From Candidatus Eiseniibacteriota bacterium (GTDB taxonomy: Bacteria > Orphanbacterota > Orphanbacteria > Orphanbacterales > Orphanbacteraceae), in NCBI GenBank assembly GCA_029262235.1, contig JAJCZU010000002.1, forward strand, positions 62,001 to 126,000: DNA of 64,000 nt, read 5' to 3'. Shown here piece by piece: positions 14,278-42,960 of the stretch (its first letter is position 1; every line of letters starts with the position of its first letter). A program made the translations under genes and the position numbers. Under the pieces are notes generated by a model. It was not told the DNA's origin, did not search any database, and saw nothing but the letters and a program-made list of their open reading frames with translations.

Positions 14278-15692
14278 GCAAGTTACTTCGCCATCTCCCT
14301 TCGGTCGACACGCTGCTTCAGAGCGAGGCCGTGCAGGAACTGCTGGCGCGCTTCCCGCGTGTGGTGGTCGTGGACGCGATCCGGGCGGTGCTCGACGAAA
14401 CGCGTGCCGCGGTGCTGAGCGGCGCCCCCCGCGCGCCCGGGAGGGAATCGGAAATCGCCGACCTCGCGCGTTACACGGGCCCGATCACGGCCGCGTGCGA
14501 CCGCCTCATGAGCCCGTCGCTCCGTCGCGTGATCAACGCAACCGGCATCGTCATTCACACGAACCTCGGCCGCGCGCCGATTGCGCCGTCCGTGTTCGAA
14601 CGCGCGCGCGATATCGCCGCCCGTTACACGAACCTCGAGTTCGATCTCGCTTCGGGAAAGCGCGGCTCGCGCCATACGCACGCCGAATCGCTCCTGACGC
14701 GCCTGACCGGGGCGGAAAGCGCGGTGGTCGTCAACAACTGCGCCGCGGCGCTGCTCACGTCGCTTCACGCACACGCGCATGGCCGCGAAGTGATCGTTTC
14801 GCGCGGCGAGCTCGTCGAAATCGGCGGCAGCTTCCGCCTGCCCGACATCATGAAGGCGTCGGGCGCGAAACTCGTCGAAGTCGGTACGACGAACCGTACG
14901 CGCGCCCGCGATTACCAAGACGCCATCACGGAACAGACGGCCGCGATCCTCAAAGTGCATCAGTCGAATTTCCGGATCGAGGGCTTCACCGAAGAGGTTA
15001 CGGTCGACGAACTGAGCGAAATCACGCGCGAGGCCGGCCTCAAGCTGCTTTACGACCTCGGAAGCGGGTCGTTTCTGCGCGTCGGCAAGGGCGCCGAGCC
15101 CACCGTGACCGACGAAATGAAGCGCGGGGCCGACGTCGTCATGATGTCGGGCGACAAGCTGCTCGGGTCGGTGCAGGCCGGCATCATGCTCGGGCGCGCA
15201 CCCGCCATCGACGTGATCAGGAAGTCGGCGCTCATGCGCGCGGTTCGGCCTGACAAAGTGACGCTTTCGCTGCTCGAATCCACACTGCTCTATTACCTGG
15301 AACCCGCGCGGGCACTGGGCGAAATCCCCGTTTTGCGTTTGATCGAACGCCCGCTCCGTGCTATCAAAGAAGATGCCGAGGCGATTCGTGACGCTCTCCG
15401 TGCGCGGCTGCCCGAAAACGCGGTCGAGATGGAGATCGTGGAGGGGAAATCGGAGGCGGGAGGAGGCGCGATCGGCCAACCGGCGATGGACACGGCCCTT
15501 CTGGCGCTCACTTTCCCCGATCGCAGTCCGGACGAGATTGCCGCCGCGCTCAGGCAGCGGCCGGTTCCCGTTGTGGCACGGATCTACCGTGATCGGCTTT
15601 GGATCGATCCCCGCACGCTGTTTGCGGACGATCACGACCCCCTTGTGGCGGCGCTTGCCGCAGTGATCGAAGAGCAGGGAGAGAACACATGA
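14274..15692 (+). CDS. selA: L-seryl-tRNA(Sec) selenium transferase
   Basis: 472 residues from ATG 14274, overlapping the dcd stop as ATGA. SelA is a PLP enzyme converting Ser-tRNA(Sec) to Sec-tRNA(Sec) with selenophosphate. Visible motifs: [38 protein letters not shown], and the PLP-lysine segment [18 protein letters not shown]. Length and colinearity are normal. No selB, selC, selD or obvious selenoprotein lies in the window, so this SelA is separated from its partners. It is coupled by another ATGA overlap to the SPOR-protein gene. Confidence 0.95.
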
Positions 15693-17662: not shown

Positions 17663-17693
17663 AGACGGGCCGGATGCGGGGGGTGGACCAGAC

Positions 17694-20600
17694 ATGTTCC
17701 TGAAACGAATCGAAGTGTTCGGCTTTAAATCGTTCATGAATAAAGTAGAAGTCGATTTCGGGAGCGGCATGACGTGCGTCATCGGCCCGAACGGCTGCGG
17801 AAAGTCGAATATCTCCGATGCCATTCGGTGGGTGCTCGGCGAGCAGAACCCGCGCCTTCTGCGCGGCGAGAGCATGGACGACGTGATCTTCAACGGCACG
17901 CGCGTCCGCAAGCCGCTCGGCATGGCCGAAGTGTCGCTTATCCTTTCGAACGAAGCGCGCACGTTCCCGATCGACTTCCCCGAGATCCGCGTCACGCGCC
18001 GCGTGTATCGTTCCGGCGTCTCCGAATATCTCATCAACAAGAACAATTGCCGCCTCAAGGATATCCGCGATCTTCTGATGGATACGGGGCTGGGTTCTTC
18101 GACCTACACCGTGATGGAACGCCAGCAGACGGACAACCTGCTGGGCAACACGTCCGTCAATCTTCGCATCATGGTCGAAGAAGCGGCCGGCATCATGAAG
18201 TACAAGACGCAGGAAAAGGCCGCCATGCGGAAGCTCGACGCGACGCAGGTCGACCTGCTTCGCATCCGCGATATCGTGGCCGAAGTCGAAAAGCGCGTTC
18301 GTTCGCTGAACCGCCAGATCGGCAAGGCGAATCGCCACCAGGAGCTGAGCGCGAAGGTGCGTGAGTTCGCTCTTTACGCCGGGCGCCTGGAACTCGAACG
18401 ACTGCAGGCGGAAGAAGCCGAGAAGAGCGGCGCGTACCAGGAGATCTCGCTTCGTCAGGAAGAAGTGAGCGGCCGGCTCGCGACTATCGAAGCGGACGTC
18501 GAAGAGAAGACGCTCGCCCTGCGCGAAAAGGAAGAGAAGCTGCGCGGCGCGCAGGACAATCTCAACGAAACGATGATCGAACTCGAGCGCACGCACAAAG
18601 AGTCGCTCGTGCTCGAAGAGCGCGAGAAGGGGATTCGCCACCGCCAGACCGTGCTCGAGAACGAAATCACCGAAGCGAACGAGCGCATCAAGGACACCGT
18701 GAAACTCCGCTGGGAGAAGATCGAAGCGCGCGACGAGTCCGCGAAAGCGATCCGCGCGCTCGAAGACGATCTCGAAGAGCGCCGCGCGAAGAACAACATC
18801 GTGCAGGGTCAGGTGGAGCGCGCGAAGGATATCCTGCTCGAGAAGAAGCAGATCACGCTCGATCTCTTCAAGGGCGAGTCGGAGAAGCGGAACGAACTCG
18901 GCAATCTCGAAACGTCCCGCACGAGTCTCAGCAAGCGGCGCGAGAGTCTGCATCGCCAGGTCGCGTCGCTCGACGAAGAGAATACCGCGCTGGCGCAGCA
19001 GGCAACGCATAAGACGGAAGAGCACGAGCAGAAGGCGCAGGAGGCGCTCGCTCTTCGCGAAAAGCGTGACAAGACTGAAAGGGCGATCGAAAAGCTTGCG
19101 ACCGAGCGCGCCGAGAACGCCGAACAGGTCGTGCTTCTGCAGGGCAAAACGGAGTCGCTCGCTTCGACGCTCAAGCTGCTGAACAAGCTGCGTGAAGATT
19201 ACGAAGGATACAAGCGCGGCGTACGCTCGCTTCTCGCGACCGACGACAAGCCGGCATCGCTGATCGGCGTTGTGGGCGAACTGCTCGACGTCGACGCGAA
19301 AGAATATCTGCCCGCGTTCGAAAACGCGATGGGCGACGCGCTGCAGTGCGTGGTCGTCGACTCGGAAAGCGACGCACTCGATCTCGTGCACTTTCTGCGC
19401 GAAAACGAACAGGGGTGGGCGACGTTCCTGCCGCGCGATCGATTCAAGGCGGCGCAGATCAACGTAGACCCGGCGCTTGCGTCGCGCGACGACGTGATCG
19501 GCTCGGCAAGCGATTTCATTCGCGGCGACGACGCAACCGGCCACGTGCTTCGCGTGCTGCTCGGCCGCACGATTCTCGTGCGCTCGCTCGATGCGGCGCG
19601 TGCGCTCAGCCACGAAGAGAAGTACAGCGATTACCGCTTCGTGACGGCCGACGGCGAGGGCGCCCGTTTCCCCGGGATCGTGTTCGGCGGCGGTTCGGAG
19701 CGCGAGGAAGTGGGCATCTTCGAACGCCGTTCGCGTATTGCCGACCTCGAGAGCGAGAAGAACGACCTCACGAAACAGCTCGAAAAAGGTCGTGCGCAGA
19801 AGGAAAAGCTCGACGGCGAGTTCGAGAAGACCCGCTTCGAACGCGAACGCATCGTGGCGGAACTCGATGCGCTGCGTGCGGAAGTCGAAAAGCTCTCGCG
19901 CGAGCGCGAACGTCTCCAGACCGGGCTCGAGAAGAGCCGCGAATCGGTCGAGCATTTCCGGAACGAACTCGCGGAACTCGATACGGAAGAAAACAACGTT
20001 CTCGGTCTCATTCAGGCGGTCGCGCAGGAGTTCGAGTCGATCGGCGCGCACGGGAGTGAAGCGGATCGCGGGCTGAAAGAGATCGAAACGGAGATGGTGC
20101 AGCTCGAAACCGAGCGCGAGGAGTCCCGCAAGGGATTGACCGCCGCGCAGGTCGCGCTGGCCGAGGCCGAGGGGAACCGCCGCACGCTCGAAGGAGAAGC
20201 GCTGAGCCTCGAGCGCCGCGAACAGGAACTTGCAGACGAAGTGACCCGCAAGCGCGAGGAGCTTCGTACGTCCGCGGACACGCTCACGCAGATCGAAGAG
20301 CGCATCGCCGAGCTCCGCGAACAGGAAGCCGGGCTCGCCGAGACGAAAGAAATGAAAACGGCCGCGCGCGACGAGATTCTCGCCGAGGTCAACCGCATCA
20401 GCGATGGAATCCGCGCGCAGGAAGATTCCGCACGCGGCGATCGCAAGGCGCGCGAAACGGTCGCGACGGAAGTGCACCAGCTCGAAATGCGGCTGCAGGA
20501 GATCAAGCTCGGCCGCACGAACCTGCTCGAGCGCATGGACGAAGAGTTCGAGGTCGGTCGCGAGGAGATTCTCGAAGCCGAGCCGGTCGAAGAGATGACC

Positions 20601-30429: not shown

Positions 30430-31935
30430 CTATAGATAGCCGAGGCTCTCGAGGAGCCTGCGCGTTTCGGGATCGAGGTCGCCCGTATCGGTGCCGTCGG
30501 GAAGCGGGTGCGCCTTGCGCCAGTCGAGCAGCGCCTTGCGATACGGGATCAGGTCGCCGATGGCCGCGCCCGGCCCGCTGCGTCGTGCGCCGCCGGGCAT
30601 CGAGAGCAGCGCCTCGCCTCCCACGCCGTCGAACAGAAAGAAGCCTTCGCCGCGTGCTACTGCCAGCCTTTCGCCGCTCGTGCGCGGCGGCGCGGCCGTG
30701 GCGCCGTCCGGGCGCGGGAAGAAGAGCGCGTTGCGGTCGGCGATCCGGAGCGCGGCGCTTTCCGGAAGCGGGGGCTCTTCGATGATCACCGCGCGGTCCG
30801 CGGGAGCTTCCGCCGTCGACGAATAGAGCATGCGCCCTTCCATCGCATCCGGCGGTTCGATCCCGCACCCCCGCAGCATCGTCGGGGCCAGATCGATCGC
30901 ACCCTGAATCGCGGACACGACGGTGCCGCCTGCTTCACTTCGCGACTGCGCCGCGGGTTTGCGAATGAGCCCGATCCGTGTCACCGCGGGATGGATCGCG
31001 TTCGCGTGTTCGAGGTACGTGCCCTCGCCGAACGCCTCGCCGTGGTCCGTTACGAAGTAGACGTCCGCGTTCTCCCATCGGCCCGCACTTCGCAGGCCGT
31101 CGAACAGCGCCCCGATCCAGCGGTCGCTGTACGCGATCATCGATCGATAGAGCGTGAGCAGTCGTTCGTGTTCGGTTTCGTTCCAGCCCGTTTCCGCCGC
31201 GCGCTCGATTTCGTTCCAGTTCCCTTCGCGGAGGGGGCCGTCGTAGTACGCGGCGCGCTCGTAATGCGCGAGGCCCTCCGTCCCCCGGTATGGAAAGTGC
31301 GGGTCGAACAGATGCACCCAGAGCAGGCACGGTGTTTGCGCATCCCGCGCCTCGAGCCATGCGAGCGCGGCGGCTACTGTCTCTTCGCCCGGGCGCGAAC
31401 GCGTCGACTCCGGCATATCGAACGTCGTGAAGCCGCGCCCGAACCCGGCCCGTTCCGACAGGATTTTGACGCTCGTGAACGCCGCCGTTTCGTAGCCGGC
31501 ATTCGCGAGAATCTCCGCGATATGCGGTTCGTCTGCGGGAATCGTATCGCTGTTTCGCATGACGCCGGTCGAACGGGGATAGCGCCCCGTCAGCATCGTG
31601 GCATGCGAAGGCACCGTCAGCGGCGCGTGACAGAACGCGCGGTCGTAGCGAATGCCCCCCCGCGCGAACGCGTCGATGACCGGGGTCTCCGCGACCGAGT
31701 CGCCGTAGCAGCCGAGAAAGTCCGCGCGCGTCGTGTCGAGCGTGACGAGCACGATCGAGGGGCGTTCGTCGCGCGATCCGCAGCGCAGCAGCAGGGGGAG
31801 GAGCACCACGGCGATCGCGATCGCGATCGTGATCGTGCTGCCCTTCGTACTCCGTGCAATCCCGCGGTTTCTGCCGATCGGACTGTTTGCGATCCTGCGG
31901 TTTCTGCCGATCGTGCCGTTTCGTCTTCGCATCAT
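30430..31935 (-). CDS. Sulfatase/phosphatase-superfamily membrane-anchored enzyme (Thr nucleophile)
   Basis: 501 residues from ATG 31935; a longer open frame reaches 32178 but overlaps the divergent nadE region and lacks a start signal. An Arg/Asn-rich N-terminus with an 11-residue repeat is followed by one hydrophobic segment (ITIAIAIAVVLLPLLLRC) that may be a signal anchor or lipobox. Core motifs: IVLVTLDTTRADFLGCYGD, LTVPSHATMLTGRYP with Thr at the nucleophile site, and VYFVTDHGEAFGEGTYLEH. As in the 9752 enzyme, the absence of Cys/Ser argues against formylglycine sulfatase chemistry. Substrate unknown. TACATT-N6-ATG suggests a leaderless start. Confidence 0.8.
   Translation of the reverse strand: MMRRRNGTIGRNRRIANSPIGRNRGIARSTKGSTITIAIAIAVVLLPLLLRCGSRDERPSIVLVTLDTTRADFLGCYGDSVAETPVIDAFARGGIRYDRAFCHAPLTVPSHATMLTGRYPRSTGVMRNSDTIPADEPHIAEILANAGYETAAFTSVKILSERAGFGRGFTTFDMPESTRSRPGEETVAAALAWLEARDAQTPCLLWVHLFDPHFPYRGTEGLAHYERAAYYDGPLREGNWNEIERAAETGWNETEHERLLTLYRSMIAYSDRWIGALFDGLRSAGRWENADVYFVTDHGEAFGEGTYLEHANAIHPAVTRIGLIRKPAAQSRSEAGGTVVSAIQGAIDLAPTMLRGCGIEPPDAMEGRMLYSSTAEAPADRAVIIEEPPLPESAALRIADRNALFFPRPDGATAAPPRTSGERLAVARGEGFFLFDGVGGEALLSMPGGARRSGPGAAIGDLIPYRKALLDWRKAHPLPDGTDTGDLDPETRRLLESLGYL
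31859..31921 (-). repeat. 30-bp direct repeat in the N-terminal coding region
   Basis: Two copies (31859-31888 and 31892-31921, 26 of 30 bases the same, 33-bp period) encode the near-repeat GRNRRIANSPI / GRNRGIARSTK just before the hydrophobic anchor. Confidence 0.8.
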
Positions 31936-31941
31936 GTGCGA

Positions 31942-31947
31942 AATGTA
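31942..31947 (-). promoter_or_regulatory. TANNNT box 6 nt before ATG
   Basis: TACATT followed by TCGCAC and the ATG at 31935. No ribosome-binding site and no clear -35. A G/C palindrome (GCCCCGCGCGGGGC, 31955-31968) lies just upstream and could be an operator. Confidence 0.4.
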
Positions 31948-32092
31948 CCAATTTTGCCCCGCGCGGGGCGAATCGAATTGACGCCAGTCGCCGAAAGCCC
32001 CGAAACTGGAGTCCTGGGCGGGCAGCGCAGGTGACAGGGCCGGTCGGCCCGCAAACGTCCGATCACGACAGGCAGGCAAAGAGGTGGATTCG

Positions 32093-33829
32093 ATGAGCGG
32101 CGTCAGGATCGTTCTTGCGCAGATCAATACGCATGTAGGCAATCTGCGCGGCAACGCGCACAGGATTCTGGCGGGCATCGAGGAGGCCGAGCGCCTCGAG
32201 CCCGACCTGATCGCGTTCCCCGAGCTTACGGTTTCGGGCTACTCGCCCGAGGATCTGCTCGAACGCGCCCGCTTCGTCCGCGACTGCGAAGAAGCGGTGG
32301 CCGAAATCGCGCGCCGCGTCGGGAAGACAGCGGTCGTGATCGGCTTTCCGCATCGCACACCGGCCGGCCTCTTCAATTCCGCCGCGATCCTGCAGCACGG
32401 GAAAATCCAGGGCGTCTATCACAAGATGCTGCTCCCGAATTACGGCGTGTTCGATGAAAAGCGTTACTTCACGCCCGGCGATCGCGGCCTGGTTCTCACG
32501 ATGAACGATCTGCGGATCGGGTTTCACGTGTGCGAGGACTCGTGGTGGGCCGACGAGAAGCCGACAACGTGCGCGGCCGCGGCGCATGTAGACGCCGTGC
32601 TGAATATCAGCGCGTCGCCCTACACGCGCGCGAAGTTCGAAGACCGCCGGCACATTCTGCGCGAAGTCGCGAAGCGCACGAAGAGCCCCATCGCGTACGT
32701 GAATCTTGTCGGGGGGCAGGATGATATTCTGTTCGACGGCGGGAGTGTCGTTGTTTCGCGGGAGGGCGAAATCACGCAGAGCGCGAAACGATTCGAAGAA
32801 GATTTCATGGCGCTCGAGTTCACGCGGCGGGAGGGGCGCGGCGATCCGCCGACCGACCGGAACGCGTGCGACTGGGATGAACTGCGTCTTGACGTGCGCG
32901 ATCGTGCGCGCGACGGCGCGCGGGAACGGGCGCCGATCAACGTGCGGCCGCTCCCCGAGATGGAGCCGCTCGAAGAAGAAGTGTATAAGGCCCTGGTGCT
33001 CGGCACGCGTGATTATCTGCACAAGAACGGCTTCGCGAAAGCCGTGATCGGGCTGTCTGGCGGGATCGACTCGGCGCTCGTTGCCGCAATCGCGTCCGAC
33101 GCGCTCGGGTCCGAAAACGTAACCGGCGTCACGATGCCGAGCGAGTTCACGAGCGCGGGAACGCGCACCGACGCCGAAGCGCTCGCGGAAAATCTCGGAA
33201 TCCGGTTCGAGGAGATTCCGATCGGGCCCGTGGTCGACGCGTTCGAAACCGCGCTCGCCGTGCCGTTCGAGGGAACCGAGCGCGGGATCGCCGAAGAGAA
33301 CATCCAGGCGCGCGCGCGCGGCACGCTTCTCATGTCGCTCTCGAACAAGTTCGGCTGGATCGTGCTGAACACGGGGAACAAGAGCGAGAGCGCCGTCGGC
33401 TACTGCACGCTGTACGGCGACATGTGCGGCGGTCTCGCCGTTATCGCCGACGTGCCCAAGACGCTCGTCTACAAAGTGTGCCGCTGGCGGAACGAGGAGG
33501 CGGGCCGCGAACTGATCCCTGTCTCGACGATCGAACGTCCGCCGAGCGCCGAACTGCGCCACGATCAGAAGGACAGCGATTCGCTTCCGCCGTACGACTT
33601 TCTCGACGCCGTGCTCGCCGGCTTCATCGAGAAGCAGATGAGCGCCGAAGAACTGATCGAAGAGTTCGGCGAGAAGGACACCGTGTACCGCATTCTGAAG
33701 ATGGTGCGGAGCGCCGAGTACAAGCGCCGTCAGGCTGCGCCGTCGATCAAGATCACGCCGCGCGCGTTCGGCCGCGGCCGGCGCATCCCGATCACGAACG
33801 GATACTCCGCCGAGAACCGCTTCGTCTGA
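32093..33829 (+). CDS. nadE: Glutamine-dependent NAD+ synthetase
   Basis: 578 residues. An N-terminal nitrilase-type glutaminase has Glu in FPELTVSGYSPEDL, Lys in YHKMLLPNYGVFDE and Cys in FHVCEDSWW. A C-terminal ammonia-dependent synthetase has the PP-loop GLSGGIDSALVAAI and the NTGNKSESAVGYCTLYGD segment. It makes NAD+ from deamido-NAD+ with ammonia channelled from glutamine. ATG 32093 is chosen because AGAGG lies 8 nt upstream; GTG 32084 in frame is inside that site. Confidence 0.96.
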   Translation: MSGVRIVLAQINTHVGNLRGNAHRILAGIEEAERLEPDLIAFPELTVSGYSPEDLLERARFVRDCEEAVAEIARRVGKTAVVIGFPHRTPAGLFNSAAILQHGKIQGVYHKMLLPNYGVFDEKRYFTPGDRGLVLTMNDLRIGFHVCEDSWWADEKPTTCAAAAHVDAVLNISASPYTRAKFEDRRHILREVAKRTKSPIAYVNLVGGQDDILFDGGSVVVSREGEITQSAKRFEEDFMALEFTRREGRGDPPTDRNACDWDELRLDVRDRARDGARERAPINVRPLPEMEPLEEEVYKALVLGTRDYLHKNGFAKAVIGLSGGIDSALVAAIASDALGSENVTGVTMPSEFTSAGTRTDAEALAENLGIRFEEIPIGPVVDAFETALAVPFEGTERGIAEENIQARARGTLLMSLSNKFGWIVLNTGNKSESAVGYCTLYGDMCGGLAVIADVPKTLVYKVCRWRNEEAGRELIPVSTIERPPSAELRHDQKDSDSLPPYDFLDAVLAGFIEKQMSAEELIEEFGEKDTVYRILKMVRSAEYKRRQAAPSIKITPRAFGRGRRIPITNGYSAENRFV

Positions 33830-33846: not shown

Positions 33847-34518
33847 CTACTGCTCGAGCGCGCGCGGGAACAGAATGTTGTTTTCGAGATGGATGTGCTG
33901 GTGCATGTCGCCCTCCAGCGTCTCGAGGCCGTGCCAGAGCGCGCGCCACGTGGTGCAGGCATCTTCCGGCACCGTGTAGTTGTCAGACAGTTCGCGCAGG
34001 CGGCGAAGCGCCGAGCCCGCGGACTCGTGCTCGTGTTCCATGACGGAGATCGGGGCGTTCGCGACGGCTCCGCGCCCGTGCTCGATCATCGGAAACAGGA
34101 TCTGCTCTTCCTTCGCCATGTGGACTTCGAGTTCGTCCTTCAGTTCGATATAGACCGTCAGCAGTTCCGCGAGGCGTTCGGGATCGCGCGGCCCGTGCGC
34201 CGCGACCACCTTGCGCGCCATCTGCTCGAGGCGCGGCAGCTCCTCTTTGAGCGGCACGTGATAGGTCGCCAGGATGTGCGAAATGAGGTCCGCAAGCGGC
34301 TCGTTTTCCCAGCTCTTGCCGGCCGCGTCGTTCGTGGCCAGTTCCTGCTCGATTTCCGCGAGCAGTTTCTGTGTGTCGAGTCCCTTCTCGTCGCACACGG
34401 TCTGGAGCGGCTTCCCGCCGCCGCAGCAGAAGTCGATGCCGTAGCGGTGATAGACCCGGGTGACCGCCGGGTGGCTGGCGGCGAGCTTGCCTACGCGCAC
34501 ATCACTCGTGATGCTCAT
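33847..34518 (-). CDS. Iron-sulfur cluster repair di-iron protein (RIC/YtfE/ScdA)
   Basis: 223 residues. The ScdA_N domain has IDFCCGGGKPLQTVC. The hemerythrin-like di-iron domain shows metal ligands in ATYHVPLKEELPRL, HMAKEEQILFP, VMEHEHESAG and DMHQHIHLENNILFPRAL. RIC proteins repair Fe-S clusters damaged by nitric oxide or oxidants. The start overlaps the end of the TetR gene by 4 nt, so the repressor and the repair protein are one operon. This fits stress-induced expression next to a large heme/Fe-S redox operon. Confidence 0.93.
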   Translation of the reverse strand: MSITSDVRVGKLAASHPAVTRVYHRYGIDFCCGGGKPLQTVCDEKGLDTQKLLAEIEQELATNDAAGKSWENEPLADLISHILATYHVPLKEELPRLEQMARKVVAAHGPRDPERLAELLTVYIELKDELEVHMAKEEQILFPMIEHGRGAVANAPISVMEHEHESAGSALRRLRELSDNYTVPEDACTTWRALWHGLETLEGDMHQHIHLENNILFPRALEQ

Positions 34519-35126
34519 GATTTTCTCCCTGATGTCAGCACTGTTTCCAGCGCGTCGAGTGTTTTGTCTGCATCGACGTGCGCGGAGCCGGATTGCGGGC
34601 CCGCGCCAGTCAGTGCGTGAATCGTTCCCATTACTATTACAGTCAGTTGTTCGGGCGCGATATCGTTCCGGATCGTCCCCGCTTCGGCTCCCTCGCGAAT
34701 GGCGCGAAGGATGTACTCGCGCGTTCGCCGCACGAGTCCGCGAAGCTGGCTGACCGTCATGTCAGGAAGGACGTCGGGCGCCTGCTCGGACCGGAGCATC
34801 CACGCATGTCCCGCGTTGTCCGCCAGCGTATTCACGCGATTGCGGACGAGACGTATGAGCCGCGGCAGAGCAGGGGCGCGGGAGTAGGGGAACGTGTCTT
34901 CCACGGCCTCGATCGTGATCAGGGCCGCTTCCGCGACGATATCCTCGAGTGACGAATAATGGCGATAGAGGGCACCGTTCGTGAAGCCGACCTCCTCGGC
35001 CAGGGTCGCGATGGTGAGCCCCTTGCGCCCGCCGCGGCCCAGAATGCTGAGGGCGGCGAATGCGATGTCGTCCCGGCGCTCGTCCTTCGTCTTGCGTGGA
35101 GCCCTTGTCTTGCCTGTTTCGTTCAT
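34515..35126 (-). CDS. TetR/AcrR family transcriptional regulator
   Basis: 203 residues from ATG 35126. An N-terminal TetR helix-turn-helix is seen (residues about 15-60; IATLAEEVGFTNGALYRHYS). The C-terminal ligand domain is helical (EYILRAIREGAEAGTIRNDI). An open frame continues upstream to 36299 only because it runs antisense through the barrel-protein gene. A promoter TTGCTA-17-TACTAT lies directly upstream with a 24-bp perfect palindrome filling the spacer, which predicts autorepression. The mRNA would start about 1 nt before the ATG. Ligand unknown; partner gene RIC suggests a redox or nitrosative signal. Confidence 0.9.
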   Translation of the reverse strand: MNETGKTRAPRKTKDERRDDIAFAALSILGRGGRKGLTIATLAEEVGFTNGALYRHYSSLEDIVAEAALITIEAVEDTFPYSRAPALPRLIRLVRNRVNTLADNAGHAWMLRSEQAPDVLPDMTVSQLRGLVRRTREYILRAIREGAEAGTIRNDIAPEQLTVIVMGTIHALTGAGPQSGSAHVDADKTLDALETVLTSGRKS

Positions 35127-35133
35127 AAACCAG

Positions 35134-35162
35134 ATAGTAAGTAAACGTTTACTTACTAGCAA
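35134..35162 (-). promoter_or_regulatory. TetR promoter with embedded 24-bp palindromic operator
   Basis: On the minus strand: -35 TTGCTA (35162-35157), 17-nt spacer, -10 TACTAT (35139-35134). The palindrome spans 35135-35158, with perfect 12-bp arms (TAGTAAGTAAAC and its reverse complement), and lies between and over the core elements. A repressor bound here would block RNA polymerase. Confidence 0.8.
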
Positions 35163-35218: not shown

Positions 35219-36871
35219 CTAGAATCGATAGCTGGTGGAGCCGTGGATCACGCGGGAATCTTCGCCATTCCCCCTGGTCCAGTCGGCCGAGAGCGTGAGA
35301 TAGCAGCGGGCCGGCAGGTTCATGGCGACCTCGGCCGTGGTCCAGGTCAGGCGCCGTTCTTCCGGATTCGTCTCCGTCGGGTCCTCGCGTCGTTCGCCCC
35401 GCGTACCCGAAACCGTCGTCCGACTGCCGAGGCTCACGCCCAGTGTGCCGGTGAGCAGCCGCCCGTTGCCCCTGCCGTTGTCGTAAACGGTGGCCCGTGT
35501 CCGCAGGCTGAGGCCCGAGAGCTCGCGCAGATTGAGACCGGCGGTCCAGTCGGTCGAACGCGCTTCGCCGGCAGAACCTCCCGAGCGCACGCGGTGGCGC
35601 AGCGATGTCCGGAATCGCGTGCCGAGCCGATGGGTGACGCCGCCCCATGCGCCCTGGCGGTAACTGTCGTCGAAGTCTGTTTCCGGCGTGATCATGTGGC
35701 GATAGAGCCTGACAGCACGGCGGTTGTCGAAACCGGACTCGAGTGTGAGGGCCCTCGTGATGCTGAATCGGAGGGAGGCGTATGTGTTCGTGAAGGACAG
35801 GCGGCGATCTTCGGCTTCGTGGCGCCAGCCCCGATTGATGTCGACCTGCTGGGACAGGCTGAAGGAGAGCCGGTCGCGCCGGACTCGATTCTGCAGAAAG
35901 AGGTACTCCCGATTGATGTCGCTCTCGCCATAGGAACCGATCGCGCCCACCGTGATCGAAAGGCTGCGCCCGCGGGTCGGCTTCCGCCCGTATTCGACGA
36001 AGCCGCCGAACTCGCGGATGTCCTGCGAGAGTCCGTAGTCGCGCGCGCCGGGTTGCGTGCCCGCGAACAGGCCCGTTTTCCATCGCGCCCACTCCTTTCT
36101 GCCAAGCACGCCGTCGAAAACACTGACCGCCGCGAGCGATGCCGAGGTCTGACGCCCGAGCGTGACTTCTGTTCCGTGCCGGTCCCAGGCGCGTGACGCC
36201 GAGAGCCGATAGACGCGCGACCGCGAACTCTGCGGGGAGTCGCCGTTCGAGAGTGTTCTGTATGTCCTGCGCATGCGGACATCGACTTCCGCACCCCATG
36301 CCGTTCCTGCGATACGCGACCCGCGGACACGGAGATCGATTGCGGGCTGCGTGTAATCGTCCCCGTTCTCCGAGAGGTTGCTGCTGCCCGTGAAGCGGAG
36401 CGCGAAGCGGCCGCGCAGCCCCTGTTGTTTCAGGAAAGATCCGGAAGGGCGCCGGCGCTGCACCGCGGACGTCGCATCAGCCTCGGGAGACGGGGCGGAG
36501 AGCGCGGAGCCGGGGGGGGCGAGTGCGGGCGCGGAAGGAACGCGCACGATCGTAACGATGTCCCCCGCGCGGATTGCAGCGGAGTCCTCGAGCATCGTGC
36601 ATGCGGCCGAATGTGAAGCGAGGGACGTGACAAGGAGAGTACTGATGCGAACGCCGTTCCGCGCGACGTCCAGTTCCGCCCCCTCGCGCACGCCGTCGTC
36701 CTTGCCTAGGTCGACGTAGATGGTCTTCGCCGTCACGAACGTCACCGTTCCCTCGGTGCGGCCTTCCGCGCATGCGGCACGCGGCGTGATCACGAGAATG
36801 GTGATCGCTATCGTCAGGAGCCTTGCGACGGCAAACCACGCAAGGCGCTGGTGCATCATCAGTCCCCGCAT
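35219..36871 (-). CDS. Outer-membrane beta-barrel protein with N-terminal SH3-like periplasmic domain
   Basis: 550 residues. A signal peptide (LLTIAITILVITPRAACA) is followed by a small beta domain at about 35-110 (TVTFVTAKTIYVDLGKDDGV, GDIVTIVRV). This resembles the SH3-like domains seen in FlgT-type envelope proteins. After a Pro/Ala linker, residues about 150-550 are alternating amphipathic strands with many Arg/Thr/Tyr and short turns, ending in Phe (IHGSTSYRF), the outer-membrane barrel signature. It begins 2 nt after the stop of the 25-heme cytochrome gene, so it is the last gene of that operon. By analogy with MtrB/PCC porins it may house or contact a cytochrome conduit; that function is inferred from position. 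Confidence 0.72.
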   Translation of the reverse strand: MRGLMMHQRLAWFAVARLLTIAITILVITPRAACAEGRTEGTVTFVTAKTIYVDLGKDDGVREGAELDVARNGVRISTLLVTSLASHSAACTMLEDSAAIRAGDIVTIVRVPSAPALAPPGSALSAPSPEADATSAVQRRRPSGSFLKQQGLRGRFALRFTGSSNLSENGDDYTQPAIDLRVRGSRIAGTAWGAEVDVRMRRTYRTLSNGDSPQSSRSRVYRLSASRAWDRHGTEVTLGRQTSASLAAVSVFDGVLGRKEWARWKTGLFAGTQPGARDYGLSQDIREFGGFVEYGRKPTRGRSLSITVGAIGSYGESDINREYLFLQNRVRRDRLSFSLSQQVDINRGWRHEAEDRRLSFTNTYASLRFSITRALTLESGFDNRRAVRLYRHMITPETDFDDSYRQGAWGGVTHRLGTRFRTSLRHRVRSGGSAGEARSTDWTAGLNLRELSGLSLRTRATVYDNGRGNGRLLTGTLGVSLGSRTTVSGTRGERREDPTETNPEERRLTWTTAEVAMNLPARCYLTLSADWTRGNGEDSRVIHGSTSYRF

Positions 36872-36873
36872 AT

Positions 36874-38775
36874 CTATTTCCGCCCGTCAGGGTGGCAGTC
36901 ATAGCACGCGAAGCTCTCGTAGATGAATCCCTGCTCGCCGTCATGCTGGTCGGTGACATCGTTTTCATCGCTGTGCTTGTGACAGTCGATACAGCTGAAG
37001 GTCGAGAAGTCCCCCGGGGAGACGTGGCATTCCGTGCAGTCGTCCCAGGTCTCGCCCTTTCTGTGCTTTCCGGTGAAGATCGGGAAATACGTGCCGTCGT
37101 GATCGAATACCGCGCCCTCCCACATCGTCGTGTTGTGACAGTCCGTGCAGTCCGTCGGGAAGCCGGCGCCCGGGTGGTCCGGAACCGCGTTCTCGTAATC
37201 AGTCTGGTGACACGCGTAACAATCGGCCGACGTCGTCGAGAAGAGCGCGCCGCCCACGTGACAGTCGGAGCAGTTCGCGTCCGCATGTCCCTGCGTGAGT
37301 GCGAAGAACGAGTGGTCGTAGATCCCGTTCTCCCAGCCGCTCAAATCATGGCAGCTCGCGCAGTCGGTTGCGAATTCGGCGTCGGCGTGGATCGGCTCCT
37401 GCGAGTTGTCGAAGTCGGCCATATGACACGCTTCGCAATCAGTCGGCGTGCCCGCGAAAACGCCGTCGATGTGGCAGCTCGCGCAGTCGACCCCGGCGTG
37501 GCCCTGGGTCAGCGTGAAGAAGTCGTGGTCGAACGTGCCGTCGCCCCACTCGCTTGTCGTATGACACTCCGCGCAATCCGTCGGGAAGTTCGCGACGATG
37601 TGATCGGGCTCGCCCGCACCTTCGTAGTCGAGCTGATGGCACGCGTAACAATCGCTCGAGGTTGTCGAGAAGAGTTCACCGCCCACGTGGCAGTCGGAAC
37701 AGTTCGCGTCCGCGTGGCCCTGCGTGAGTGCGAAGAACGAGTGGTCGTAGATGCCGTTTTCCCAGCCGCTCAGGTCGTGGCACGATGCGCAGTCTGTCGC
37801 GAACTCGGCGTCGGCGTGGATCGGCTCCTGCGAGTTGTCGAAGTCGGCCATATGGCACGCTTCACACGTTGTCGGCGTCTCCGAGAAGTCGCCCCCCACA
37901 TGACAGCTCGCGCAATCCACGCCCGCGTGGCCCTGGCTCAGCGTGAAGAAGTCGTGGTCGAACGCGCCGTCGCCCCACTCGCTCGTCGTATGACAGCCTG
38001 CGCAGTCGGTCGGGAAGTTCGCGGCGATATGATCGGGCGCTGTAGTCGCTTCGAACGTCGCCTGATGGCACGCATAGCAGTCGGCCGACACTTCCTCGTA
38101 CGCCTGGCCCTCCAGGTGGCAACTGGCGCAGTCAACGCCCGCGTGCCCTTCGCTCAGCGGGAAGAACGAGTGATCGAAGTCCGCGCCGGCCCAGGCTGTG
38201 GTCTGATGACAGGATTCGCAGTTCGTAATCAGTCCGGCTTCGTTGTGATCGGGATCCTTTGCGCGGTCGCGATCGGAAACATGGCAGACTTCGCACGCTG
38301 TCGGGGTCCCTATATATTGAAGCTCGCCGACGACAGAGGCATGGCACTCGGCGCACTCGGCAGTCAGATGCGCGCCGGTCAGCGGGAATCGCGTCGACTG
38401 ATGGCCCCGTCTGAATGCCGCCGGGTCTTCGAAAGTCACGGTCGTGTGGCACTGGCTGCAGTCCGTCCCGAATTCCGTCTCGTGGATGTCCTGATGGCAG
38501 TCGATGCATGCGGGGCCCGCGACTTCGAACTTCAGATTGACGTGGCAACTGAGACAGGGAACGGTTTCGTGACTGTTCTCGAGCGCGAAGCCGTGCTTCT
38601 CATGCTTCCAGTCTTCGCTGAATTTCGCAGGCACCCATCCTGTCGCGCTATGACAGAGGTTGCAGTTCTCCTCGAGATCGCCGTGAGGACTCGTCTGGTC
38701 CGCGGCGAACCCCTGGATCGTGAGACCCGCGAAGCCCGCGCCGATCATGAGAAGCAGGATGCCGATGCGCCTCAT
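36874..38775 (-). CDS. Secreted 25-heme c-type cytochrome with tandem repeats
   Basis: 633 residues from ATG 38775, chosen because GGGAGG lies about 8 nt upstream and the N-terminus is then a signal peptide (RRIGILLLMIGAGFAGLTIQ). There are 25 CxxCH heme-binding motifs, from CNLCH near the N-terminus to CYDCH near the end. Many are followed by an FDHDFF or HAGVDC segment whose His may be the distal axial ligand. Two consecutive 143-residue units of six hemes each are nearly identical. It starts inside the stop of the 20-heme gene (ATGA). Likely a periplasmic electron wire or extracellular terminal cytochrome. No catalytic heme motif is recognised. Confidence 0.88.
   Translation of the reverse strand: MRRIGILLLMIGAGFAGLTIQGFAADQTSPHGDLEENCNLCHSATGWVPAKFSEDWKHEKHGFALENSHETVPCLSCHVNLKFEVAGPACIDCHQDIHETEFGTDCSQCHTTVTFEDPAAFRRGHQSTRFPLTGAHLTAECAECHASVVGELQYIGTPTACEVCHVSDRDRAKDPDHNEAGLITNCESCHQTTAWAGADFDHSFFPLSEGHAGVDCASCHLEGQAYEEVSADCYACHQATFEATTAPDHIAANFPTDCAGCHTTSEWGDGAFDHDFFTLSQGHAGVDCASCHVGGDFSETPTTCEACHMADFDNSQEPIHADAEFATDCASCHDLSGWENGIYDHSFFALTQGHADANCSDCHVGGELFSTTSSDCYACHQLDYEGAGEPDHIVANFPTDCAECHTTSEWGDGTFDHDFFTLTQGHAGVDCASCHIDGVFAGTPTDCEACHMADFDNSQEPIHADAEFATDCASCHDLSGWENGIYDHSFFALTQGHADANCSDCHVGGALFSTTSADCYACHQTDYENAVPDHPGAGFPTDCTDCHNTTMWEGAVFDHDGTYFPIFTGKHRKGETWDDCTECHVSPGDFSTFSCIDCHKHSDENDVTDQHDGEQGFIYESFACYDCHPDGRK
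37222..38079 (-). repeat. Two tandem 429-bp units inside the 25-heme cytochrome gene
   Basis: Units 37651-38079 and 37222-37650 have identical length (429 bp, 143 codons), each beginning after a CYACH codon block and encoding six CxxCH motifs. Long stretches are near-identical in DNA, such as the part encoding DNSQEPIHADAEFATDCASC. This indicates recent duplication. Confidence 0.85.
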
Positions 38776-40619
38776 GACTTCGCCCTCCCGACAGGAACGC
38801 CATCGGAGTGGCAACTTTCGCACGACGCATCAATCGGTTTGAAACGCGTGAATGCGCCGGCGGCATCGGACTCGCTCTTGTGACAGGCCGCGCAGGCGAC
38901 GTTCGAATGCGCGCCTTCGAGCGGGAACGATGAATCGCGGTCGTGCACGAAGCCCGGCGCGGGCCGGAACGCATTCTGGTCGTGACACTGCGCGCAGTCG
39001 GGCGCGAACTGGGCGCGGTGCGGATCCTGATGACAGTCGGCGCACGCGGCGTCAGCAACCGTAAACGCGAGGGGCGGGTCGAGCGGCGGGCCGAGGGAGA
39101 GCGTCGAAACGAGAGGCTGATGCGCCATGTCAGCGTGACAGGCGAAACAGGGGACGGCGGCGTGGGCCCCTTCGAGCGGGAACGAAAAGCGGGCGTGCAT
39201 GCCGGCATCGACGAGCGTCGGCGTGAAGCCCTGCACGTTATGACAATCGGCGCACGTCCCGGCGCGCTCGATGACTTCGCGGCCGTTTCCGGCACGGTCC
39301 GGTGCTTCGCTGCCCGCGTATTCGCTGCCCGCGTATTCGCTTCCCGCGTATTTTGCGCCGTGCGGATTCATATGGCAGTCGATACACGCCGACCCGTCGA
39401 GTCCGAAAAAGATTCCCGCAGGCCCCAGCAGGTCGTGGTCGGCGAGCACGGGCAGGAACTCGCGAACGGTTCCATGGCATTTTTCGCACGAAACGCCCGC
39501 GTGCGCCCCCTCGAGCGCGAACGGGAGGGAGGCGTGGTCCTGCGTCGTAAACGTCGAGGGACTCCAGTCTGCGGTCGTGTGACAGGATGCACATTCGCCG
39601 CCGCTGTCTGTGAGTGTGAGCTGACCGGCGTGTGCATCCTGATGACAGTCCGCGCAGAGTGCATGTGGCGGCCGGAGCGATACGCCGGCGGAACCGAGAT
39701 CGCGCGCGAGCAGGCCCGCGGTGTTCCCGGTGTGACAGCTTGCGCAGGGAACGAGTTCGTGTTTTCCGTCGAGCGGGAACGGGCTCTGCGCATGCCGGGC
39801 GACCGTGTAGGTCGACGGGCTGAATCTGTTCACGGTGTGACACGCGGCGCAATCGGCCTGTCGGCCGGCGAGCGTCGCCTGGCCCGCATGAGCATCCGTG
39901 TGACAGTCGCCGCAGCTCTGGAACGCGGGCCGTGCCACGCGCCGCTCCGCTTCACCGTGACACGCCTGACAATCGACAGCGGCATGCGCCCCGCGCAGAG
40001 GATAGGCGGTCCGGGCATGATCGAAACCGGTCGTTGCCACATCAAGAAAACTCGTCTCGACATGACAGTCGGCGCAGGCGGTTCCGAGTCGCCCCGCGTG
40101 CACGTCTTCATGACACGAGGCGCAGTTCGTCTCGAGCCCGATCCACGGGCGGTGGCCCCCCTTGAGCAGGTCGACAATGGGTGACTTCCGCAATTCCTGT
40201 TTGTGACAAACGCCGCAGGTTGCATCCGCATGCTTTCCATTGAGCGGCCATCCCGTCGAGGCGTGATCGAACGTACCGACCTGCAGCGCCTTGTCGTCGA
40301 TCAACGGGAAGTCGCGGCCGGCGTGATCGGGATGACAGGACGCGCACTCTCCCGACTCAGCCTGCCCGTGCAGTCCGCGCCCTTCGGACACGAGTTGCCC
40401 GATCCCTTCATGGCACGCCATGCACTGATTGCTGATGTTCTGGTCGCGCCCGATGCCGTGGCACTTGAGGCAGTTCAGCGCTCCCTCGAGATCTTCGTGA
40501 ACACGCGCGAGCGGACCCGGCGAAAACTGGGCTTCGGCACGGCTTGCGCGCCCGCAGAGCACGAGCAGCAGAAGCACGCAGACGATCAGGGGACCGTTCT
40601 GTTGCAGTTCGATGCTCAT
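38772..40619 (-). CDS. Secreted 20-heme c-type cytochrome
   Basis: 615 residues from ATG 40619, which overlaps the stop of the oxidoreductase gene (ATGA). Signal peptide: PLIVCVLLLLVLCGRASRAEA. It has 20 CxxCH motifs, starting with CLKCH and CMACH, including CIDCHMNPHG, and ending with CESCH. Spacer segments such as FDHARTAYPLRGAHAAVDC and HARFSFPLEGAHAAVPC repeat the pattern seen in the 25-heme protein, so the two are related. A short tandem YAGSE repeat (39309-39355) lies between hemes 14 and 15. Predicted periplasmic electron carrier between the inner-membrane di-heme b protein and the 25-heme protein (inference from order). Confidence 0.88.
   Translation of the reverse strand: MSIELQQNGPLIVCVLLLLVLCGRASRAEAQFSPGPLARVHEDLEGALNCLKCHGIGRDQNISNQCMACHEGIGQLVSEGRGLHGQAESGECASCHPDHAGRDFPLIDDKALQVGTFDHASTGWPLNGKHADATCGVCHKQELRKSPIVDLLKGGHRPWIGLETNCASCHEDVHAGRLGTACADCHVETSFLDVATTGFDHARTAYPLRGAHAAVDCQACHGEAERRVARPAFQSCGDCHTDAHAGQATLAGRQADCAACHTVNRFSPSTYTVARHAQSPFPLDGKHELVPCASCHTGNTAGLLARDLGSAGVSLRPPHALCADCHQDAHAGQLTLTDSGGECASCHTTADWSPSTFTTQDHASLPFALEGAHAGVSCEKCHGTVREFLPVLADHDLLGPAGIFFGLDGSACIDCHMNPHGAKYAGSEYAGSEYAGSEAPDRAGNGREVIERAGTCADCHNVQGFTPTLVDAGMHARFSFPLEGAHAAVPCFACHADMAHQPLVSTLSLGPPLDPPLAFTVADAACADCHQDPHRAQFAPDCAQCHDQNAFRPAPGFVHDRDSSFPLEGAHSNVACAACHKSESDAAGAFTRFKPIDASCESCHSDGVPVGRAKS
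39309..39355 (-). repeat. 15-bp tandem repeat encoding YAGSE
   Basis: Three imperfect copies of a 15-bp unit (plus-strand core CGCTGCCCGCGTATT) give YAGSEYAGSEYAGSE in a heme-free loop of the 20-heme cytochrome. Confidence 0.85.
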
Positions 40620-42058
40620 GCGTGACTCGTTTCCCGCGGGATGGCGACATCGCGGCTGACCATGCGGATGCCGATGCGTTCCAGAAACGGAAACGGCGGT
40701 TCGCCGCCGACGCGGATTACGACGTTGTCGTTCGGGATCGTGCGGGATTCTCCGCCTGCGAGCGCGAGCGTTACCTCGCCCTCGGTGATCTGCTGGATCT
40801 GGCTTTGCAGCAGCACTGCGATCTTGCCCTGCGCGGCGGCCGCGTCCAGTTTTTCGCGGTTGCGATCCTTCGCGCGCTTGAACTCCTCGCCCCGATAGCT
40901 GAGCGTCACGACGGCGCCTTCCTGATCGCAGGCGCCGAGCGCCGATTCGATCGCGCTGTCTCCGCCGCCGACAACGAGCACGTGCTTGCCGCGAAAAACT
41001 TCCATTTCGGCAACGTCGTAAAAGACCTTCTCGCGTTCTTCGCCCGGGACGCCGAGTTTGCGCGGTGTGCCGCGCCGGCCCATCGCGAGTACCACGCGCC
41101 GCGCGAGTCGCACCGTTTCTTCGTTCGTCGAGACGGCAAGAAACTCGCCCCGCTTTTCGATCGCGGTCACGCGCTGGTCCGTCTGCACGACCAGGCCCGA
41201 CCGCGCGATCACCTTGTCCCAGATTTCGATCAGATCTTCTTTCGAAGCGTCGCGCACCCAGAGATCGCCGAAGAGCGGAATGTTGACGGGTTCGGCGAGC
41301 AGCAGTTTGTGTCGCGGATACTTGCGAATCGTGTTGGCGGGCGTGCCCTGGTCGAGCAGAGCGTAGTCGAGTCCCTGGCGCAACGCTTCGAGACCGGCGC
41401 TCAGCCCGGCCGGGCCGGAGCCCACGATGATCACGTCGTGCACGCGTTCGTTCGGCGCGGTTCGCGCGGGCGCGCTCTCCTTCAACTCGCGCGCCACGCT
41501 CTCGATCGCGAGCTTGCCTTCGTTGATCGCGTTCTTGATGAGCCCGCGCCCTCCGAGTTCGCCCACAATATAAACGCCGGGCACGTTCGACTGGAAGTCG
41601 AGGCCGATATCGGGCATTTCGACGCGATGCACCGCTTCGCCGGTCGCCATGATGATCGCGCCGACGGGGCACGCATCGGCGCACTTGCCGTGGCCGACGC
41701 AGAGGGATTTGTCGACGACGGCGAGTTTTCCCTGCATGGCGATGGCCCCCTGTTCAGGGCATACGGGTATGCATGCCGTGCACCCTACGCATACGTCGGC
41801 CCGCACGATGGCTTTGAGCTGCCCGTCGTCTTCGCCCGTCTCCTGGGAGAGGGGTGCGCCGACCATCTCGTACACCTGCATCGCGATCCCGCAGCCGGGG
41901 CAGTAGAGCGCGCCGGTCGGCACGTTTTCACGGCAGCGCGGGCAGGCGGCGCCGTCCGGATCCGAGCCGCCGGGAGCGTCCGCGCGCTTCCGCATGTACG
42001 ACCGGATGAAGAGCATGGTTACGAGAATCGTGACGATTGTTGTGATGAAGGCTTCCAT
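40616..42058 (-). CDS. Membrane-anchored ferredoxin/FAD-dependent NAD(P) oxidoreductase
   Basis: 480 residues. One N-terminal transmembrane helix (FITTIVTILVTMLFIRS) is followed by a zinc-ribbon (C39, C42, C53, C56). Two 4Fe-4S sites follow: CxxCxxCxxxCP at 90-101 and a second with His in place of the second Cys (CVGHGKCADACP, 120-131). The rest is a thioredoxin-reductase-like fold with FAD motif IIVGSGPAGLSAG and NAD(P) motif VLVVGGGDSAIESA. The redox-active Cys pair of thioredoxin reductase is absent. It probably oxidises NAD(P)H at the inner membrane and passes electrons through Fe-S clusters to the adjacent di-heme b protein. It is coupled by ATGA to the 20-heme gene. Confidence 0.88.
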   Translation of the reverse strand: MEAFITTIVTILVTMLFIRSYMRKRADAPGGSDPDGAACPRCRENVPTGALYCPGCGIAMQVYEMVGAPLSQETGEDDGQLKAIVRADVCVGCTACIPVCPEQGAIAMQGKLAVVDKSLCVGHGKCADACPVGAIIMATGEAVHRVEMPDIGLDFQSNVPGVYIVGELGGRGLIKNAINEGKLAIESVARELKESAPARTAPNERVHDVIIVGSGPAGLSAGLEALRQGLDYALLDQGTPANTIRKYPRHKLLLAEPVNIPLFGDLWVRDASKEDLIEIWDKVIARSGLVVQTDQRVTAIEKRGEFLAVSTNEETVRLARRVVLAMGRRGTPRKLGVPGEEREKVFYDVAEMEVFRGKHVLVVGGGDSAIESALGACDQEGAVVTLSYRGEEFKRAKDRNREKLDAAAAQGKIAVLLQSQIQQITEGEVTLALAGGESRTIPNDNVVIRVGGEPPFPFLERIGIRMVSRDVAIPRETSHA

Positions 42059-42066
42059 AGTGCGTC

Positions 42067-42960
42067 CTACCAGAACCAGGTTGCGCCCATGACGACGACG
42101 ACGGCGACGTGAAGTACGACCGCGAGCAGTGCGGTGACGGCGAACGGACGATGCGCGACGTGCCAGAGCCGAAAGACGCGGCGCGTGGCATCGAGCGCGC
42201 GGATCTGATGGGAGAGTTTCAGTTCGCGGCGTGCGAGCTTCATTGCCCGGCGGAAATCCTTTTTGTCGAGCGGCTGATTCGCCGCGTTCCCTTCGCGCAG
42301 CTGCTTCTGGAGCGATCGGAGCACGCGGCCGCGCCGGAAGTCGTCCACGATCAAGAGACGAATTGTCGTAAGCGGATTGCGGGACGCGAACACGCCTGCA
42401 TCGACCGTAAGCATGTCTCGCAGCCTGGCGATGTCGATGTTCGTGGCCAGGCTGAGATCGGCGATCAGGTCGTCGCCCTGCATCCGGATGTCGGCGACGG
42501 AAAGCTCGGCGCCGTTTCGCGCGCGCGGAATGCGGACGTAGAGGTAGCGACCGATCACGCCGCTGAACGCCACGAGCAGCATGGCGAGATAGCCGAGCCC
42601 GATGACCCCCGTGAATCGCCAGCCCGCGTGCGTCGCGCCGAGCACCGGAATCAGGAGCCCGGCCGCGATATGGACTTCGAGCCAGCGGGGGACGGATCCC
42701 GTGAACGCGAGAAACGAGAACTGTTTGCGAATCGGGTAGAGCCAGAGAAACAGGAAAAGCGCGAACGCCAGGATCCCCGTCGACTGGCCGACCGTGCCGG
42801 ATGGAGAGAACACATCGTTCAGCGGATGGCGGACGCGATCGTGGAGAGGGAGAACGTAGTACCGCAGGCCGTAGATGTTGATCAGCGCGATCAGCATGAG
42901 GGGCGGGAGAACGAGGCGGGGGACCCAGCTCTTTGGTCGTGTCTGTGCTTTGCCGGTCAT
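42067..42960 (-). CDS. Ferric-reductase/NOX-like di-heme b membrane protein
   Basis: 297 residues from ATG 42960 (GAAGGG upstream; the open frame extends to 43059 but into the promoter region). It has about five transmembrane helices. Two His pairs each fit H-x13-H: HIAAGLLIPVLGATH and HRPFAVTALLAVVLH. This is the spacing that holds two b hemes across the bilayer in ferric reductases and NADPH oxidases. A soluble ~110-residue loop between them (SVADIRMQGDDLIADLS to LDKKDFRRAMKLARRE) is unusual and may dock a partner. It is the first gene of the redox operon. Confidence 0.82.
   Translation of the reverse strand: MTGKAQTRPKSWVPRLVLPPLMLIALINIYGLRYYVLPLHDRVRHPLNDVFSPSGTVGQSTGILAFALFLFLWLYPIRKQFSFLAFTGSVPRWLEVHIAAGLLIPVLGATHAGWRFTGVIGLGYLAMLLVAFSGVIGRYLYVRIPRARNGAELSVADIRMQGDDLIADLSLATNIDIARLRDMLTVDAGVFASRNPLTTIRLLIVDDFRRGRVLRSLQKQLREGNAANQPLDKKDFRRAMKLARRELKLSHQIRALDATRRVFRLWHVAHRPFAVTALLAVVLHVAVVVVMGATWFW

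Follow-up and report, generated by a model that had tools for sequence, protein, structure and literature searches.

The Mtr, Mto/Pio and Geobacter PCC electron conduits are fed via the quinone pool. The described system that most closely resembles the locus analysed here is PCC3, which consists of a barrel, an extracellular cytochrome (median of 34 hemes), a periplasmic cytochrome (median of 21 hemes) and an inner-membrane protein (He et al. 2017, PMC5566968). The latter protein comprises about 300 amino acids and five transmembrane helices (TMs), with an SGXXG motif on TM4 and WX3HX13H motifs on TM3 and TM5; it has already been compared with ferric reductases and NOX, and proteins of this type have been modelled as quinone-active cytochromes b that link the conduit to the quinone pool (PMC5566968). 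PCC3 has been reported from Proteobacteria, e.g., the clusters Slit_0867-0870 and Slit_1446-1449 of Sideroxydans ES-1 (PMC5566968). The PCC3 cytochromes of Gallionellaceae contain 21-27 and 10-35 hemes. Later papers treat PCC3 as a set of four genes (PMC12442390, PMC8788666), with no functional proof reported (PMC12442390).

Gene cluster and its relation to described conduits

The window, i.e., the entire stretch of 64,000 nucleotides of Candidatus Eiseniibacteriota DNA that was analysed, contains a tightly coupled run of genes on the minus strand that are transcribed in the order A, B, C, D, E (Table 1). A reading-frame check identifies an 8-nt gap between A and B, 4-nt ATGA overlaps at the B/C and C/D junctions, and a 2-nt gap between D and E, so that the five coupled genes with ATGA overlaps and a longest gap of 8 nt described in the initial annotation are confirmed in both coordinates and spacing. 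The base composition of the operon does not depart from that of the flanking DNA, and scans for promoters and terminators yield hits no more common than expected by chance.

Table 1. Coordinates of the cluster genes in the window and of the three-gene sets on proteobacterial plasmids
Feature	Record	Coordinates	Strand	Description
A	window	42067-42960	minus	297 aa; five-helix, predicted di-heme cytochrome b-type inner-membrane protein of the PCC3 type
B	window	40616-42058	minus	480 aa; 4Fe-4S and YpdA/TrxR-like FAD/NAD(P) oxidoreductase with an N-terminal TM
C	window	38772-40619	minus	615 aa; secreted multiheme cytochrome, 20 CxxCH; candidate periplasmic wire
D	window	36874-38775	minus	633 aa; secreted multiheme cytochrome, 25 CxxCH; candidate outer/extracellular wire
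E	window	35219-36871	minus	550 aa; predicted outer-membrane beta-barrel and small N-terminal beta domain
Tandem duplication within D	window	37193-37921	minus	copies 37193-37492 and 37622-37921
Three-gene plasmid set	L060	12842-16271		
Three-gene plasmid set	L061	13537-16259		
Three-gene plasmid set	L161	8082-11436		
Three-gene plasmid set	L162	7980-11466		
Three-gene plasmid set	L163	7980-11466		

Compared with the published description of PCC3 (motifs, size and heme counts, as opposed to homology to Slit_0867-0870), A has the properties of the inner-membrane protein (297 aa, five TMs, two WX3HX13H motifs and SGXXG); C, with its 20 CxxCH motifs, corresponds to the ~21-heme cytochrome; D, with 25 CxxCH motifs, internal repeats and a location that is a prediction, resembles the many-heme, repeat-bearing cytochrome; and E corresponds to the outer-membrane barrel (a 22-strand model and Foldseek matches). 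Compact clustering and repeats in the cytochromes are also common to both, and the heme numbers of C and D are in line with those of PCC3. The gene content differs, however, in that the window cluster includes, in addition to the four PCC3 genes, the conserved gene B, which elsewhere is sometimes fused to A; furthermore, whereas PCC3 is known from Proteobacteria, the five-gene form is found in Eisenbacteria-related, Gemmatimonadota and Bacteroidota genomes. The combination of a porin, a large multiheme cytochrome, a ~21-heme cytochrome and an HX13H protein, which the initial annotation had taken for an undescribed arrangement, is that of PCC3 (PMC5566968), so that this part of its interpretation is abandoned and only the electron path that it proposed is retained (see below). 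Rather than representing a new kind of system, the cluster is a variant of PCC3 that has an NAD(P)H module of its own. Its new aspects are the conserved NAD(P)H oxidoreductase, encoded by the fifth gene, and the occurrence beyond Proteobacteria. A search of the literature on PCC3 in connection with NADH, Bacteroidota, Gemmatimonadota and Eisenbacteria, covering the main texts (as distinct from supplements) of papers available without subscription, found no description of the five-gene form.

Other systems are related to the window cluster more distantly. MtrCAB, MtoAB and PioAB likewise combine cytochrome wires with an outer-membrane barrel, which is a functional likeness, but they contain 10 hemes, compared to 20 and 25 here, the window operon is without a NapC/CymA-type quinol oxidase, and no match to the MtrA, MtrC or MtrB families exceeds the cut-off. 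Specifically, D is rejected as MtrA (TIGR03508, 32 bits against a cut-off of 192), C as OmcA/MtrC (TIGR03507, 19.8 bits against 209), and E as MtrB/PioB, given that it matches no Pfam or NCBIfam model. The likeness to ferric reductases and NOX is also functional, in that TM3 and TM5 each carry an HX13H pair and electrons are predicted to cross the membrane from a FAD/NAD(P)H part on the cytoplasmic side, but A falls outside PF01794 by score, the flavin part of B is YpdA/TrxR-like and is combined with 4Fe-4S clusters, and the acceptor would be a multiheme wire. In PCC4 and in barrel-less HX13H clusters, an HX13H inner-membrane protein is encoded beside a cytochrome and another redox protein, as is the case here. 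However, the barrel-less plasmid clusters possess a 7-heme protein and an FNR-type 2Fe-2S partner and lack the barrel, and PCC4 contains periplasmic cytochromes of 4, 5 and 10 hemes (He et al. 2017, PMC5566968), so that the window system, whose two cytochromes have 20 and 25 hemes, is not a PCC4.

Beyond E, a perfect 20-bp palindrome, GTAAGTAAACGTTTACTTAC (35137-35156), is located immediately upstream of a TetR-family gene (34515-35123) and is likely to be an operator. The TetR gene overlaps a gene for a ScdA/RIC-type hemerythrin iron-centre repair protein (33847-34518). These two genes are not considered members of the operon because the TetR gene begins 95 nt beyond E and has a palindrome of its own, and because both genes are absent beside the cluster in relatives. 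The window also contains two sulfatase-family genes (9752-11584 and 30430-32178) that have no relation to the conduit.

The inner-membrane cytochrome and the oxidoreductase

The AlphaFold2 model of A consists of five TMs (mean pLDDT of 91), with H97-X13-H111 on TM3 and H270-X13-H284 on TM5; the corresponding motifs are WLEVH-x13-H and WHVAH-x13-H, and TM4 carries the sequence SGVIG. All four histidines are invariant among the 35 homologs compared, with identity down to ~22%, and so are both glycines of the SGXXG motif in these 35 proteins. The five-helix protein with two H-x13-H pairs recognized at the outset is thus borne out by the model and by the invariant histidines. No Pfam or NCBIfam family matches A above the cut-off, the nearest Pfam family being cytochrome b561 with a sub-threshold score (18.3 bits against a cut-off of 30.1). 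In the comparison with ferric-reductase profiles that the initial annotation had proposed, A misses the PF01794 cut-off (12.1 bits against 28) and accordingly is not a ferric reductase proper; the families that 32 homologs of A match at E <= 0.1 do not include PF01794 either. A Foldseek search with the model of A identifies no significant match, so that a ferric-reductase fold is not proven on structural grounds, and PDB sequence searches started with A, C or E return nothing useful. The positive-inside rule, applied to the sequence of A, suggests that the N terminus and the loop of ~115 residues between TM4 and TM5 face the cytoplasm. Such a charge-based orientation would place the heme bound by H97 and H270 near the cytoplasm and the heme bound by H111 and H284 near the periplasm.

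In protein B, a single N-terminal helix precedes basic residues, after which come a zinc-ribbon-like stretch, a ferredoxin domain with two clusters and a flavoprotein domain. The Fer4 and Pyr_redox domains score above the Pfam cut-offs, and the match to Pyr_redox_3 (141 bits against a cut-off of 30) identifies the FAD/NAD(P)-binding Rossmann domain of YpdA/TrxR-like flavoproteins; the PDB search yields a match to 7a76. The score against the YpdA equivalog model is 162 bits compared to the required 340, which makes B a relative of YpdA rather than YpdA itself. The zinc ribbon scores below the threshold and is absent from Bacteroidota and several other homologs, so that from the original prediction of a Zn-ribbon/4Fe-4S/FAD/NAD(P) oxidoreductase, the Fer4 and Pyr_redox parts are upheld whereas the ribbon has a sub-threshold score only. 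The second 4Fe-4S motif (window positions 41660-41790, minus strand) has the form CxxHxxCxxxCP, with H123 invariant in 20 of 20 aligned homologs; a cluster ligated by three cysteines and one histidine would be unusual in a ferredoxin domain. In the first 4Fe-4S motif, the second cysteine is replaced by serine in Bacteroidota and by threonine in one other member. The solved relatives of YpdA and TrxR act on disulfides, and given that the flavin half of B resembles these proteins, a different substrate is possible.

The multiheme cytochromes and the barrel

Profile searches identify both C and D as c7/c3-type multiheme proteins with signal sequences, which agrees, also with respect to the counts of 20 and 25 CxxCH motifs, with their initial annotation as secreted proteins. 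The signal sequence of C points to a periplasmic location. The heme count of C, 20 in the window, is 20-23 in most relatives, and the second cytochrome, in the position of D, contains from ~13 to 76 CxxCH motifs across relatives. D itself includes two 300-nt copies that are 84% identical and 429 nt apart, along with internal repeats; this tandem repeat shows a route by which heme numbers can shift. A search with PF22678 detects one weak match, which is located elsewhere in the genome.

The AlphaFold2 model of E (mean pLDDT of 76) contains 22 strands (residues 151-549) that end in phenylalanine; these are preceded by a small beta domain at residues 40-110 that plausibly is SH3-like. A Foldseek search started with this model identifies ushers, OccK/OprD porins and AlgE, i.e., outer-membrane barrels from no single family. 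Together with the lack of a match to any family model, the 22-strand model bears out the description of E as an outer-membrane barrel of no recognized family.

Linkage, partners and the proposed electron path

Among all fetched loci, 61 contain a strong match to A; 31 of these extend 8 kb or more beyond A in the downstream direction and are considered well covered. In the latter set, B, which is represented in several phyla, and a 19-23-heme cytochrome are each found in 28 of the 31 loci, E in 25, and all five components in 25, a conservation that excludes chance assembly. The gene order varies among A-B-C-D-E, A-C-D-E-B and B-C-D-E-A, so that the linkage is informative and does not merely reflect a frozen order. 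Of the gene-order conservation that was to be looked for in relatives, the linkage therefore holds but the fixed order does not. B is not encoded nearby in 3 of the 31 loci, and locus L100 has the order A-C-D-E with no B on the fetched contig, which indicates that B is dispensable.

The A profile is positive in 39 of 386 genomes scattered over the domain; by comparison, A is present in every one of the 21 genomes in which E is strongly matched (E < 1e-15), and E adjoins D in most clusters. A co-occurring barrel, a predicted beta-barrel and the histidine pairs, the lack of any of which had been named beforehand as evidence against the conduit, are accordingly all found. The co-occurrence of E with A and its position beside D argue against the very improbable alternative in which C and D stay in the periplasm as an electron store or a reductase fed by B and A, with E an unrelated channel. 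What this alternative has in its favor are plasmid clusters of Proteobacteria in which a distant A-like protein is encoded with a cytochrome and an NAD(P)H module and with no adjacent barrel, and which imply that the inner-membrane module is able to serve other ends. These three-gene sets (Table 1) come from alphaproteobacterial (L060 and L061) and gammaproteobacterial (L161-L163) plasmids and encode a FAD/NAD/2Fe-2S protein, an HX13H membrane protein and a 7-heme or c3-type cytochrome; they have no barrel, and copper-resistance genes are often located close by. A search of plasmid records for the named proteobacterial PCC3 copies retrieves only such barrel-less FNR-type clusters with A-like proteins.

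Searches of named genome contigs identify the cluster in metagenome-assembled genomes labelled Candidatus Eisenbacteria, Gemmatimonadetes and Bacteroidetes/Flavobacteriales, and in a cultured bacterium, Emticicia oligotrophica DSM 17448, the complete set (EMTOL_RS21090-RS21110) resides on the plasmid pEMTOL02. Directly upstream of the plasmid cluster (L059, 11896-14982) is a CcsA/ResB-type cytochrome c maturation gene, as if the plasmid supplied its own heme-attachment machinery. Neither A nor E is detected in three fairly complete genomes from the family to which the window belongs, so that the system is patchy within this family. Another genome of this family, G002, has a second, divergent cluster (L049) with the order A-C-D-E-B; in the tree of A, its protein groups with other lineages, which suggests horizontal transfer. 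In two lineages, a small TPR-repeat membrane protein, possibly an assembly factor, is encoded within the cluster (L095, 12100-12687; L051, 12146-12730).

The most direct connection between A and B is their fusion in one reading frame, which is observed in two unrelated families, in L111 (7959-10799, 946 aa, with B at residues 203-633 and A at 662-940) and in L112 (8400-10658, 752 aa, with B at 16-449 and A at 468-742). Beside the L112 fusion, there is a reading frame (14404-19998), truncated by the end of the fetched stretch, with at least 76 CxxCH motifs. In other loci, A-like proteins are found with different partners. A protein with FAD_binding_6, NAD_binding_1 and Fer2 domains adjoins the A-like protein in the plasmid sets and in L102, where this FNR-type module occurs together with a 40-heme cytochrome; a Pyr_redox_2 protein does so in L054; in L055, L058 and L118, distant A-like proteins are fused or adjacent to 4Fe-4S proteins with a cyclic-nucleotide-binding domain, and in L116, the latter type is combined with a YpdA-like domain. 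Thus, a cytoplasmic redox module is the rule for A-like proteins, and most of these modules contain NAD(P)-binding domains.

The main rival explanation, which appears rather unlikely, is that the quinone pool is the redox partner of A, as modelled by He et al. (2017, PMC5566968), with B in an accessory role, e.g., in disulfide reduction or upkeep of the system. The sub-threshold resemblance of A to the quinone-linked cytochrome b561 is compatible with such a role, and so are L100 and L109, where A and two multiheme cytochromes occur with no B on the fetched stretch. However, an accessory role of B does not fit well with the B-A fusions, with the presence of B in 28 of the 31 loci, or with the substitution of non-homologous FNR-type NAD(P)H modules for B beside A-like proteins. 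Together, the fusions, the conserved linkage and the alternative modules favor entry of electrons from NAD(P)H over a quinone link and lend good support, as a model, to the path from NAD(P)H via FAD, Fe-S clusters, b hemes and c hemes to the barrel that was proposed originally. On the strength of structure prediction and comparative genomics, the system probably is an electron conduit of the PCC3 type that spans the cell envelope and includes an NAD(P)H dehydrogenase of its own.

With the predicted membrane orientation and heme occupancy, B would be tethered to the inner membrane, its catalytic part would reside in the cytoplasm, and NAD(P)H would be oxidized at its FAD. The Fe-S clusters of B would hand electrons to the b heme of A that is nearer the cytoplasm (ligands H97 and H270), from which they would pass to the periplasm-side b heme (H111 and H284), then, in the presumed order of carriers, to the periplasmic 20-heme wire C and to the 25-heme wire D. 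Assuming the putative localization and surface exposure of the cytochromes, D would span or cap the outer membrane together with the barrel E, and the net flow, most likely outward, would end at an extracellular oxidant, the candidate partners being Fe(III) or Mn(IV), a partner cell or a shuttle. The host genome encodes cytochrome c maturation genes and two heme-copper oxidases; thus, the organism is able to make such cytochromes and probably respires oxygen.

Multiheme conduits are capable of running in both directions. Combined with the oxidative metabolism that the two heme-copper oxidases make possible, this reversibility would allow inward flow, in which Fe(II), Mn(II) or a partner cell donates electrons to D and, at the cytoplasmic end, B reduces NAD(P)+. 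The published proposals for PCC3 indeed concern Fe(II) oxidation (PMC5566968), but both PCC3 clusters of Sideroxydans ES-1 are down-regulated on Fe(II) (PMC8788666), and reduction of NAD(P)+ by Fe(II) against the membrane potential would be strongly uphill. Inward flow, like a purely periplasmic role, is considered less likely than the quinone-linked alternative and, by itself, improbable.

For the preferred outward path from NAD(P)H, general bioenergetics implies that electrons would leave the negative side of the membrane for the positive one with the proton left inside, so that the path alone would conserve no energy. Such flow would draw on the membrane potential instead of building it, and a role in redox balancing or reductive metal mobilization seems likelier than energy-conserving respiration. 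A more far-reaching reading, offered here tentatively, is that the cluster represents a quinone-independent, NAD(P)H-driven wire in which a NOX-like B-A unit with a Cys3His Fe-S cluster in B feeds at least 45 c hemes leading to the surface, with interchangeable dehydrogenases and a presence in several phyla. The NAD(P)H link can be tested directly, given the natural B-A fusions and the copy on a plasmid of the cultured Emticicia oligotrophica. PCC3-like conduits now also extend to candidate phyla, Gemmatimonadota and Bacteroidota, which are unusual groups for extracellular electron transfer. If the NAD(P)H link is true, there is a class of very long heme wires that drain cytosolic reductant directly, in a NOX-like manner, and their energetics and physiological purpose would differ from those of quinone-fed conduits.
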